Source: a virus. Taken from it: a stretch of DNA of 29,421 nt. Shown piece after piece: positions 5-16,415 of the stretch. The position numbers and the translations under genes are program-made. The stretch lies in IMG/VR virus record IMGVR_UViG_3300025645_000327, positions 1 through 29,421 of that record; one strand, 5' to 3'. Position 1 is the first letter of the stretch. Every line of letters starts with the position of its first letter. Below the pieces are notes generated by a model. It was not told the DNA's origin, searched no databases, and was given only the letters and a program-made list of their open reading frames with translations.

Positions 5-184
5 ATGACACAATATGAAGCAATAGGACTCTGTGAGGGTTTTATCGAATGCGATGACGAAAATAGAATAATTGAAGCTTGGCAATATCTAATCGATACT
101 GGCTTAGCTTGGTCTCTTCAAGGAAGCTTTGGCAGATTTGCAAGAGAATTAATTGATCAAGGAATTTGTTCTGAAACCAATTAA
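5..184 (+). CDS. small conserved phage protein, 59 aa
   Basis: Starts ATG at 5 and stops TAA at 182-184. The middle of the protein reads EAWQYLIDTGLAWSLQGSFG, which I recognise as the core of a small protein family common in environmental and marine phages; its function is unknown to me. It has no signal peptide and no membrane segment. The upstream region is outside the window, so the Shine-Dalgarno cannot be judged and a start further upstream cannot be excluded. It is the last gene before a strongly structured 197-nt gap. Confidence 0.75.
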   Translation: MTQYEAIGLCEGFIECDDENRIIEAWQYLIDTGLAWSLQGSFGRFARELIDQGICSETN

Positions 185-381
185 TCCACGAAACACGGTC
201 CACGATAAACGGTCCGTGTCTAGGCTCACGAGTTGAAAGAGCCTACTGACGAGCAACTCAAAACGGTGTGAGGACACCACCCTTAGAAAGAAAACGGTTT
301 GATCTTTGGATCGCAGTATCCTTTTTGATACTGAGTCAAACAATGTCTTTCAGTGTCCGACGTTTAACAAAGGAGAGCAAA
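185..381 (+). ncRNA. structured leader RNA with candidate H-type pseudoknot
   Basis: No gene is supported here, but several strong helices can be read by eye. ACACGG (193-198) pairs with CCGTGT (214-219). TAGGCTC (221-227) pairs with GAGCCTA (239-245), and within its loop GAGTTG (230-235) can pair with CAACTC (254-259), which makes an H-type pseudoknot. GGTGT (265-269) pairs with ACACC (274-278). GTTTGA (297-302) and TCAAAC (336-341) enclose a hairpin of CAGTATC (314-320), loop CTTTTT, GATACTG (327-333). The 382 gene follows with AGGAG at 371-375. It may be a 5' UTR regulator of the early operon or an independent small RNA; no promoter or terminator is clear. Confidence 0.5.
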
Positions 382-1505: not shown

Positions 1506-1535
1506 TTGAATTTTTTTACGATGTCTCGATATAGT
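1506..1535 (+). promoter_or_regulatory. candidate sigma70-type promoter
   Basis: TTGAAT (1506-1511), an 18-bp spacer, then TATAGT (1530-1535), preceded by A-tracts. Predicted initiation near 1542-1543 falls just before the 13-bp closing helix of the candidate RNA that starts at 1548. The -35 is only a partial match, so confidence is moderate. Confidence 0.35.
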
Positions 1536-1787
1536 AAATAAGAAATATAGAAGGACCTGAAACCAAACAAATTGCAATTTGTTTGGAGGCACTCTGACTG
1601 AATAACGATTTTAAAACAGAGTCGTAAGGTATAGGGCTCAAGAAGTATGGCCAAATGGCTGAGGTCTTGAGAAGAAAGTGCGAGTAAGGAGAGATAAACT
1701 ATCTGTTCCGTCCGAAAGTTGTGGGTAACAGTTCAAATCCCACGAGTACCCTCAGGTCCTTCTACGTTTCAAACAAAGGAGGCTATA

Positions 1788-1817
1788 ATGCTAATTATAG
1801 TTCTAGACCCATGGTAG
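1788..1817 (+). CDS. candidate 9-aa leader ORF
   Basis: ATG at 1788 follows a consensus AAAGGAGG (1775-1782) at good spacing and encodes MLIIVLDPW before a TAG at 1815-1817. The stop codon lies inside the 5' arm of the terminator hairpin at 1814-1835, and the start codon lies in an inverted repeat (CTATAAT 1783-1789 with ATTATAG 1794-1800). Such an arrangement suits an attenuator leader peptide for the operon starting at 1858. No run of one amino acid reveals a signal. Translation is not demonstrated. Confidence 0.35.
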   Translation: MLIIVLDPW

Positions 1818-1835
1818 CCCTTAGGGGCTACTTTT
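1814..1835 (+). terminator. intrinsic terminator-like hairpin
   Basis: GTAGCCC (1814-1820), loop TTAG, GGGCTAC (1825-1831), then TTTT. The stem is GC-rich for this genome. The T-run is short, so it may be a leaky terminator or attenuator between the candidate RNA and the gene at 1858. Confidence 0.6.
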
Positions 1836-1857
1836 CATTAAAATAAAAGGAGAGCAA

Positions 1858-12950: not shown

Positions 12951-14538
12951 GAAAACTCCTACAGTTGTTATTGGTCCTCCAGGGACAGGGAAAACAACTT
13001 TTATACTTGAAAAAATAGAAGAGTATTTGGCTAATGATGTCGGTATTGATGAAATAGCTTTCTTTTCTTTTTCTAATAAAGCAGTTGATGAGGCTAAACA
13101 AAGAGCTTCTCAAAAATTTAAAATACCACTAAGTCAGCTAGAAAATTTTAGCACATTACACTCTTTCGCATTAAGACAAATGGGTCTTACGAGAGAGCAC
13201 ATATTGAGCAATAATGATTGGAGAAACATATCAAATGAACTTAGGATTAATATTAACGTTAATAATGATGATGACATATTTTTCAACAACTATGACGACA
13301 AATATGTTGATCTTATAGAAAAGGCAAAAAGAAGAGACATACCTTTACGTGATTGTTGGGCTATGTTTGCGAAAGATATTATTTGGCATAAATTAGAATA
13401 CATAGATAAAGGTCTCAGAGATTATAAAGATTTTGGGTATGAACAGTTTACAAGTGGTAGTGACGGATATCTTGTAAAAGATCAAGGACCAAAAGTAGAT
13501 TTTACAGATTTAATAACAAACTTTGTTAAAGGTAGTTTTTATAAACATTTTAAAGTTGTTTTCTTTGATGAGTCTCAAGATATGTCTACGATACAGTGGA
13601 AAATGGCAGAAAAAATATGGAAAAACTCAGAAAAAAGTTATCTCGCCATGGATCCTAATCAAGCTATTTATACTTGGGCAGACGCAGATGTATCAAAAGC
13701 AATACAAATCAAAGATGAAGCTAAGAATATTGTTGTGTTAGATCAATCAAAAAGAGTTCCAAGAAAAGTTTGGGAAATTGTTAATCGTGTTGAGGAACAA
13801 ATAGTAGGATATGATGACATCAAGTGGTCCCCAGCTAATCGAGACGGATCTGTCGAGTTCATTAGAGGCATGTATCATTTAAACATGGACGAGGGCTCTT
13901 GGTTGATAATGGGCAGAACAAGAACCATTCGTGATGACATGGAAGAAGTCATGAGAAAGAAAAATATTTTTTTTAGAGTTAAATTAAAAGACAATAAATA
14001 TAGATATTCTATTGGAAGTAAGGAAAGAAATGCTATTCTTACTTGGAAAGATTTGATGAGAAATGAAAATAATCAAGTGCCTATAAGATTGATAGAAAAT
14101 TTATATAAATGTTTAGGAAAAGAGTATGTGGTTCGTGGTAATAAAAAACTTATTACAGAACAAAAAAAAGCTTTTCCTGATAAGAAATTATCTTTTAAAG
14201 ATTTGAAAGATGACTTCGGACTAACGGTTGACTTTGGTACGCCTTGGGTAGTTGTAATGACAACAATTAACACAGAAACAAAAGCGTACTTAGAAAACTT
14301 AGAGACAAGAGGTGAAGACTTAGCCTTAGAACCAAGAGTAACTTTATCTACTATACATCAACAAAAAGGTGGTGAAGCAGATAATGTTATTGTTTCTTTA
14401 GATATAGGAAAAATGGCATACGAAGAATATCGTACTAATCCTATTAGCGAGCATAGACTGTTTTATGTTGCTTTTTCTAGAGCTAAAGAAAATTTATTTA
14501 TAATAACGCCACAATCGCGGGAGGCATATAGAATATGA
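12934..14538 (+). CDS. UvrD/Rep-like superfamily 1 helicase, 534 aa
   Basis: ATG at 12934, overlapping the previous gene by 17 nt. Motifs in order: Walker A GPPGTGKTT (residues 14-22), motif Ia FFSFSNKAVDEAK, motif II VVFFDESQDMS, motif III LAMDPNQAIYTWADAD, motif IV region DQSKRVPRKVWE, motif V TLSTIHQQKGGEADNVIV and motif VI RLFYVAFSRAKENL. This is the SF1A set of a 3'-5' DNA helicase. It is shorter than E. coli UvrD (about 720 aa), as usual in phages. It is probably the replicative or recombination helicase, since no DnaB-type gene is visible. ATGA overlap with the polymerase. Confidence 0.92.
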   Translation: MSLLDKKTPTVVIGPPGTGKTTFILEKIEEYLANDVGIDEIAFFSFSNKAVDEAKQRASQKFKIPLSQLENFSTLHSFALRQMGLTREHILSNNDWRNISNELRININVNNDDDIFFNNYDDKYVDLIEKAKRRDIPLRDCWAMFAKDIIWHKLEYIDKGLRDYKDFGYEQFTSGSDGYLVKDQGPKVDFTDLITNFVKGSFYKHFKVVFFDESQDMSTIQWKMAEKIWKNSEKSYLAMDPNQAIYTWADADVSKAIQIKDEAKNIVVLDQSKRVPRKVWEIVNRVEEQIVGYDDIKWSPANRDGSVEFIRGMYHLNMDEGSWLIMGRTRTIRDDMEEVMRKKNIFFRVKLKDNKYRYSIGSKERNAILTWKDLMRNENNQVPIRLIENLYKCLGKEYVVRGNKKLITEQKKAFPDKKLSFKDLKDDFGLTVDFGTPWVVVMTTINTETKAYLENLETRGEDLALEPRVTLSTIHQQKGGEADNVIVSLDIGKMAYEEYRTNPISEHRLFYVAFSRAKENLFIITPQSREAYRI

Positions 14539-16415
14539 GTAAACAAATTGGAATGTTTAAACCAAAATCAGAGTGGGTTCCACCTATGGATTTTCCTAAC
14601 ATTAAAGACGCAGATAAAATAGCAATAGATCTAGAAACAAAAGATCCTAATCTTATGCAGAAAGGCCCAGGTTGGGCTACTAATGACGGAGAAATTATTG
14701 GTGTTGCTATCGCTGTGGACGGTTGGAAGGGATACTATCCTATTCGACATGAAACAGGTTTTAACCACGATCCACGAGTCGTGTTTGATTGGCTTAATGA
14801 AGCTCTTTCAGGAGACGGAGAAAAAATAGCTCACAACGCTACTTATGACTTTGGTTGGTTAGAAGCTGAAGGAGTCAAATGGAATGGTCGTATCATTGAC
14901 ACAATGATTGCTGCTCCTTTAATTAATGAAAACAAATTTAGTTATTCTTTAAATGCAGTATCAAAAGAATATTTAGCTGAAAGTAAAAACGAATTTCTTT
15001 TAAATGAAACAGCAGCACAATGGGGTGTTAATCCTAAAAGCGAAATGTTTAAAATACCTTCTCAATATGTAGGAGAGTATGCTGAACAAGACGCAGTGCT
15101 GTCTTTAAAACTTTGGGATAGATTAAAACCTGAAATAGTTCAACAAGACTTGCAAACAGTTTTTGATTTAGAAACTGACCTCATACCTATTCTTATGAAG
15201 ATGAGAAAAAAAGGTGTGAGAGTGGATTTAGAACAATTAAAGAAAGCTGAAAAGACATTTGTTAAAAAAGAAAATGAATTAATGAAATTCATCTTTGAAA
15301 AGACAGGGCTCAAATGTGATATATGGGCTGCTCGTTCCATTGCTACCATTTTTGATCAGTGTAAGATTGATTATCCTAAAACAGAAAAAGGTAATCCTAG
15401 TTTTACAAAAAGCTTTTTAGAGTTTCATCCTCATCCTATTCCGAAGGCAATTGTTCAGGCCAGAAACTTCAACAAGGCACGGACCACGTTCCTTCATACA
15501 ATAGAAAAATATCAGCATAACGGAAGAATTCATGCGAACATTAATCAGCTACGAACAGAAAATGGTGGTACGCTGACAGGTCGTTTTAGTTATTCTAACC
15601 CTAACCTTCAACAAATTCCTGCTAAAGATGACGCTGAATCGGATATTAAAATCGGTTCCTTAGTTAGAGGATTGTTCTTACCTGAAGAAGGAGAGAGGTG
15701 GGGTTCTTTTGACTACTCTCAACAAGAGCCACGACTCGTGAGCCACTATGCAAACATCGTGAAGCTAGAGGGTGCTGAAAAAATCGTTAAAGCTTACAAT
15801 GAAGACAAAGAAACAGATTTTCATACAATCATGGCTGAAATAGGAAATATACCTCGTAAGAGCGCTAAAACCATAAATTTAGGGCTATTTTATGGCATGG
15901 GTGTGGGAAAGCTATCTGATCAATTAGGCATTGATCCTGAAGAAGGTAAATCTTTAATCAAACAATATAATGAAAGAGTTCCTTTTGTTAGACAATTAGC
16001 TGACGCAGTATCTGACCATGCTAATAAAAGAGGAGCTGTTAAAACTTTCTTAGGTCGAAGATGTCGTTTTGAATTATGGGAGCCAAAAGCATTTGGTTCT
16101 TACAAAGCGTATCCTTTGGATAGAGCTAAAGAAGAGTATGGTGAATATACTCCTTTGAAAAGATCAGGGACGTATAAAGCTTTAAATAGGTTGATACAAG
16201 GATCAGCGGCTGATCAAACAAAAAAAGCCATGATTGATTTAGATAAAGAAGGTATCAATCCTATGATTCAAATTCACGATGAACTAGCCATTAGTCTTAA
16301 TGGTGATCCTGAAGTGGAGAAAAAAGTCATTGATATTATGGAAAACACGATTGAAATGAGTGTTCCTTCCAAGGTCGATGTAGCAATAGGAAACAATTGG
16401 GGAGAAGCAAAATGA
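14535..16415 (+). CDS. polA: family A DNA polymerase with 3'-5' exonuclease, 626 aa
   Basis: The proofreading domain is intact: Exo I D32 and E34 (AIDLETKD), Exo II KIAHNATYDFGWL, Exo III YAEQDAVLSLKLWD. Polymerase motif A has D393 (FDYSQQEPR), the O-helix has R441, K445, L449 and Y453 (PRKSAKTINLGLFYG), and motif C has H581-D582-E583. There is no 5'-3' exonuclease domain. Aligning the O-helix to E. coli Pol I puts Leu449 at Phe762; marine viral PolA proteins with Leu there have been proposed in the literature to belong to slower or temperate phages. ATGA overlaps tie it to the helicase before and the zinc-ribbon protein after. Confidence 0.95.
   Translation: MSKQIGMFKPKSEWVPPMDFPNIKDADKIAIDLETKDPNLMQKGPGWATNDGEIIGVAIAVDGWKGYYPIRHETGFNHDPRVVFDWLNEALSGDGEKIAHNATYDFGWLEAEGVKWNGRIIDTMIAAPLINENKFSYSLNAVSKEYLAESKNEFLLNETAAQWGVNPKSEMFKIPSQYVGEYAEQDAVLSLKLWDRLKPEIVQQDLQTVFDLETDLIPILMKMRKKGVRVDLEQLKKAEKTFVKKENELMKFIFEKTGLKCDIWAARSIATIFDQCKIDYPKTEKGNPSFTKSFLEFHPHPIPKAIVQARNFNKARTTFLHTIEKYQHNGRIHANINQLRTENGGTLTGRFSYSNPNLQQIPAKDDAESDIKIGSLVRGLFLPEEGERWGSFDYSQQEPRLVSHYANIVKLEGAEKIVKAYNEDKETDFHTIMAEIGNIPRKSAKTINLGLFYGMGVGKLSDQLGIDPEEGKSLIKQYNERVPFVRQLADAVSDHANKRGAVKTFLGRRCRFELWEPKAFGSYKAYPLDRAKEEYGEYTPLKRSGTYKALNRLIQGSAADQTKKAMIDLDKEGINPMIQIHDELAISLNGDPEVEKKVIDIMENTIEMSVPSKVDVAIGNNWGEAK

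Follow-up and report, generated by a model that had tools for sequence, protein, structure and literature searches.

A folded RNA is confirmed in a marine phage genome, at positions 1543-1836 of the window (the whole 29,421-nt stretch of viral DNA that was analysed). The RNA very probably represents a far-diverged new branch related to manA RNA (RF01745), and this branch is widespread in marine phages and missed by the Rfam cut-off. In the best explanation, which we hold with about even confidence, the window would encode an autonomous phage transcript of ~290 nt carrying this far-diverged manA relative.

Covariation supports a multi-helix fold

The region 1543-1836 was compared with its dinucleotide shuffles. 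The fold z-score was -5.5 and none of the 200 shuffles folded as well. The 13-bp closing helix recognized in the preliminary description (P0; 1548-1560 with 1752-1764, plus strand, as are all elements of the RNA given below) is confirmed: it has no mismatches, is present in the minimum-free-energy fold of the window and covaries. Compensatory changes are found in this helix among 18 relatives, with two-sided changes at 9 of the 13 pairs and 98% of cells paired. Its 5′ strand takes forms such as UAGAAGGACCUGA, UAGGAGAACUUAA, UGGUAGAACCUA, AAGAAAGACCUAA and CAAGAGAACUUAA in the relatives, each accompanied by the exact complement.

P0 and the enclosed helices P1, P2, P3, P4, P4b and P7 are maintained across the 18 relatives, which are marine viral contigs. 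In these close relatives 96.3% of cells are paired (84.8% when shuffled), both sides are changed at 28 pairs (17.4 shuffled), two-sided compensatory cells number 124 (shuffle mean 39.5) and the covariation score is 0.406 (0.187 shuffled), counts that are inflated by the kinship of the sequences. When the partners were moved by 1-3 columns in a slide control, pairing dropped to 33-51%. Across 31 diverse members, 97.3% of the cells of P2, P3, P4b and P7 are paired. The structure is hardly in doubt, given the outcome of this slide control and the variety of pair types, which reaches five at a single position. At least six further helices had been proposed inside P0; six are kept, whereas several of the inner helices drawn when the window is folded alone are unsupported and differ from the conserved ones. 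The ACUCUG/CAGAGU helix, for example, gave way to P2 and P3, which covary.

The P1 hairpin (1563-1586) shows two-sided changes at 6 of 10 pairs and corresponds to the first hairpin of Rfam manA. It is followed by the 5′ strand of P2 (1588-1594), the long-range helix of manA, whose 3′ strand lies at 1744-1750; covariation is seen at all five tested pairs among the 31 diverse members. The conserved UGACUGAAUAA (1595-1605), near-invariant in A2 and the same as the manA consensus, leads into the covarying P3 hairpin (1606-1624; 1606-1612 with 1618-1624), directly after which stands the conserved UAAGGU (1625-1630). P4 (1637-1643 with 1665-1671) encloses P4b (1649-1652 with 1657-1660), and this domain (1637-1671) covaries as well. 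The variable region 1672-1720 (P5/P6), having no reliable alignment, was excluded. The 3′ hairpin P7 (1721-1743) has 100% of its cells paired and carries the compensatory changes looked for in GTGGG/CCCAC, its second pair occurring as five pair types among the 31 diverse members.

The tRNA-like pieces are hairpins of this RNA

Two inner pieces had earlier been read as a tRNA-Ser/Leu-like D-arm and a T-arm, and the RNA as tRNA-derived, a tRNA decoy or an attP carrying a tRNA 3′ end. The local likeness to a Ser/Leu D-arm and the UUCAAAU of the T-loop do occur in the window, but this likeness to tRNA or tmRNA is superficial and limited to these letters, with neither covariation nor a gene call behind it. 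ARAGORN calls neither a tRNA nor a tmRNA anywhere in the window. The D-arm is P4b, a 4-bp hairpin GGNC-AAAU-GN'CU with an AAAU loop. In a pattern search with both N free, N/N' forms a standard pair in 88 of 89 distinct sequences (GC 34, AU 32, UA 16, CG 3, GU 3 and one GG). The occurrence of all four Watson-Crick forms indicates an AAAU-loop hairpin and is unexplainable by a D-arm. The T-arm is P7, and its UUCAAAU loop is restricted to the close kin of the window; other members have, for example, GAUAAAAUAAU or ACGCAAGUAAU. The family consensus of this hairpin, GGGU(A/G)...AAUCCC, matches the Rfam manA model.

The tRNA-derived and decoy readings are thus countered by the covariation of P4b, the unconserved T-loop, the silence of ARAGORN and the manA homology described below. 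The covariation of P2 and P7 argues against attP, and the P4b-region pattern gave only two chance matches in 257 Gb of bacterial genomes, both in sequence devoid of the element. An attP is very unlikely because the variation obeys base-pairing rules and the element is absent from these bacterial genomes; the tRNA and attP readings as a group are given hardly any credence. Kinship to tmRNA was considered, since two related manA-like contigs carry tmRNAs, and rejected, as the genes sit elsewhere in those contigs, the one of L110 being permuted (positions noted in these contigs: L110, 1452-1629 and 3101-3415 (-); L019, 2997-3287 (-)).

A sister branch of manA below the Rfam cut-off

When the RNA region of the window was scanned at standard Rfam cut-offs, no family reached its own threshold. 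At a relaxed threshold, the manA model RF01745 aligned over its full length to 1572-1753 with 26.4 bits (E 6.8e-5), short of the gathering cut-off of 55.2 bits. Besides the window, 16 others aligned to the whole model (1-192), with E-values from 4e-7 to 0.02 and scores of 24-41 bits for the relatives. None of the subclass members scanned with Rfam cut-offs reaches the manA threshold; only the bridging L110 (59.5 bits) and the canonical L005 (174 bits) exceed it. Pattern scans of viral contigs revealed two populations: on the one hand the canonical manA RNAs of cyanophages, on the other a large set that shares GUAUGGNCAAAUGN'CUGAGG with the window. A covariance model (R1) prepared from 31 members of the window-type set gave 68 bits for L110, 40 for L030 and 37 for L072. 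Other canonical manA copies scored about 18-27 bits with R1, near the background as gauged by two false matches (L254, 17 bits; L255, 25 bits). The full-length manA matches below the cut-off, together with the bridging L110, point to a divergent sister branch that falls outside the family when judged by the criterion of Rfam itself.

The order of elements is that of manA: P1, long-range P2, UGACUGAAUAA, P3, UAAGGU, a variable middle and the 3′ hairpin GGGUA...AAUCCC. The distribution in marine phages is also the same. The manA blocks UGACUGAAUAA, UAAGGU and GUGGGUA...AAUCCCAC all align with the window, and core motifs are common to the window branch, canonical cyanophage manA (e.g. L005, L030) and L110. 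P1, P2, P3 and the 3′ hairpin of manA are present in the branch with the support of covariation, P2 requiring a register shift relative to the Rfam alignment. In contrast, the middle domain of the window branch is made up of P4/P4b with the AAAU loop, and the window's lineage has a closing helix P0, absent from the Rfam model, and a 9-codon ORF and terminator of its own. The covariance and Rfam searches proposed in the preliminary description therefore yielded the expected covariation in marine viral relatives, but the RNA does not stay unassigned, being a manA relative below the cut-off, and a "new class of structured phage RNA" is too strong a term for it.

Blastn queries with the RNA and with several types of the family had no match among 50,697 phage records, and the branch is absent from the cultured phages searched. 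The R1 match in Pelagibacter phage HTVC027P (17 bits), which lacks UGACUGAAUAA, is noise. In earlier work manA was described from marine phages and metagenomes as a 5′UTR-associated riboswitch candidate (PMC2864571), and Rfam release 14.3 brought a correction of its alignment (PMC7779021). In cyanophage S-CREM1 it lies near wcaG and abiF, its regulatory role being unverified (PMC9964418).

A conserved 3′ module with a 9-codon ORF

Directly 3′ of the RNA lie a Shine-Dalgarno (SD) sequence AAGGAGG (1776-1782), a hairpin over the start codon (CUAUAAU/AUUAUAG, 1783-1800), a 9-codon ORF encoding MLIIVLDPW with stop TAG (1788-1817) and an intrinsic terminator (1813-1836; hairpin 1813-1832 plus T-run, -14.2 kcal/mol) whose stem contains the stop codon. 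The RNA had been taken to end in a terminator hairpin, and this agrees with the terminator-like element found. All 17 mini-ORF relatives have an SD-like site before the AUG, and in all 17 the start-codon hairpin is re-formed with compensatory changes. The mini-ORF pattern matched 20 stretches in the whole viral collection, 19 of them directly 3′ of this RNA; the 20th (L249) is a chance match whose frame contains a stop. L152 was also discarded as a chance match. The peptides include MLIIVLDPW, MIIIVLDPW, MLVIVLDPW, MVIIVLDPW, MIVIVIDDW, MLIIVFDDW and MLIIVLDYW. The length variants of L015 (10 aa) and L237 (8 aa), to which the frame pattern did not lead, have gained or lost entire codons. In sequences found nearly all through the RNA and not the frame, differences at codon positions 1/2/3 number 132/27/204, the variation in codons 3-6 being partly dictated by the pairing of the start-codon hairpin. 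These results show that the 3′ module (SD site, start-codon hairpin, 9-codon ORF and terminator) is conserved in the window's lineage. We lean towards translation of the ORF, which would proceed at a low, hairpin-gated level, the peptide being an accessory of this lineage.

Genomic context and proposed transcription of the RNA

A promoter-like TTGAAT-18-TATAGT precedes the RNA at 1506-1535 (plus strand). As a single-sequence match in the window it is no better than chance (1 found, 1.0 expected; shuffle p about 0.2). What stands from the earlier proposal of a promoter at this site is its place and spacing: TTGAAT, an 18-nt spacer of varying sequence and TAT(A/T)(G/A)T recur in the majority of the 18 relatives, their distance to the RNA being unchanged. 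In three contigs (L015, L237, L252) an inverted repeat, CGAG-AUUGG-CUCG or CGGG-AUUGG-CCCG, lies between the -35 and -10 upstream of the RNA; it shows a compensatory change and is perhaps an operator.

In L132, L134 and L142, where the unit is intact, the terminator is followed by a gene of opposite orientation, and in L134 and L142 opposite-strand genes are present on both flanks. The unit looks autonomous because of these opposed genes. With the kept promoter position and the terminator, they indicate that the RNA is probably autonomous in the window's lineage, as the proposal of an independent transcript had it. The window, L168, L240 and L251 have a same-strand gene after the terminator, an arrangement that counts against a free RNA. 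Such genes would fit a transcription attenuator, and so would the terminator stem of the mini-ORF relatives, which includes the stop codon: a ribosome translating the 9 codons would mask this stop and thereby permit read-through into early genes. Attenuation would bring no gain in L132, L134 and L142, where the unit persists though the next gene is opposed, and we consider it improbable.

All 28 viral records with a match contain exactly one copy of the RNA; 27 of them (up to 59 kb) scored strongly and one, of 113 kb, only marginally. The single copy, in contrast to a riboswitch distributed across many operons, counts for a free RNA. In 28 of 52 distinct loci of the branch an ORF with an SD site (mini-ORF counted) begins no more than 60 nt past the RNA, as for a 5′UTR element, though the genomes are compact; in 8 of the 52 the RNA is separated from the next gene by a strong promoter. 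The adjacent genes are mutually unrelated (DUF932, Sak4-like, gp2.5-like SSB, DnaA C-terminal, TSCPD), and no shared function was found among the downstream genes of the branch loci. At some other loci of the branch the RNA is embedded in non-coding arrays, which frequently follow an SSB gene. The nearby SD-ORFs are thus leader-like, whereas the promoter position, opposed genes, single copy, intervening promoters and arrays are free-RNA-like.

Arrays of several hundred nucleotides surround the RNA in L123, L129, L131, L151, L161, L170, L173, L176, L201 and L222. Often following the SSB gene, they seem to hold more closed structured RNAs joined by AAGUUUC, with helices such as CUGUGUAGG...CCUACACAG, UUCCCC...GGGGAA and GGCAAGG...CCUUGCC. 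Those of the arrays that were scanned gave no tRNAs and no Rfam family besides manA.

The chief rival is a riboswitch-like cis-regulator, in which the core would sense a molecule and thereby control how the adjoining downstream ORF, which encodes the 9-codon peptide in the window's lineage, is translated. Switching would occur between a closed P0, leaving the SD free, and a state in which the SD is covered either by the 3′ strand of P0 or by the hairpin at the start codon. The tight spacing between RNA end and SD/AUG at the 28 loci, the conserved start-codon hairpin and the status of published manA RNAs, annotated as cis-regulatory 5′UTR elements and riboswitch candidates (PMC2864571), all favour it. 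Pairing of the P0 3′ strand with the SD region is possible in 17 of 17 mini-ORF members (-6.6 to -9.6 kcal/mol), but the closed P0 is stronger by about 7-13 kcal/mol. Cis-regulation also accords poorly with downstream genes that share nothing, a single copy per genome, and separate promoters or convergent genes after the RNA at many loci. We regard it as a real possibility, at somewhat less than even chance.

A free-standing, trans-acting phage RNA is favoured over a cis-regulator. Besides the genomic context, the best explanation draws on covariation, manA matches in both directions with a bridging member, and the conserved promoter position and terminator. The RNA would be transcribed alone from 1506-1535 and stop at 1836; the multi-helix core, with its near-invariant single-stranded UGACUGAAUAA and UAAGGU, would offer a putative site to which a factor of host or phage binds, and may act as a free RNA. 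A wider scheme, in which the manA superfamily would consist mostly of free-standing phage RNAs, the window's lineage being dual-function with a gated 9-residue peptide and others lying in structured-RNA arrays, is offered tentatively and is rather unlikely as a whole.

Other features of the window and related contigs

A hammerhead ribozyme-like sequence is present at 184-262 (plus strand) with an intact core (CGAAAC, GUC cleavage site, CUGACGAG); against Rfam Hammerhead_II it scores 23.1 bits (E 0.068), below the cut-off of 37. Further copies matching a strict hammerhead pattern occur in related contigs (L209, L225 (two), L239 and L244 (two)). The DNA polymerase A encoded at 14535-16415 (plus strand) is 48-49% identical to those of Pelagibacter phages HTVC023P and HTVC027P, a close match among named phages, and this closeness suggests a SAR11-type host.

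Implications for manA RNA

The manA RNA has been a strong riboswitch candidate since 2010, and a settled function for it was not found in the open-licence literature, where our search returned no paper on this branch, the mini-ORF or a tested function of manA. The Rfam manA cut-off conceals an RNA that is widespread in marine phages. With a large sister group that occurs once per genome, carries a terminator of its own and in some cases has no gene that it could control, the question of cis or trans action becomes directly testable.
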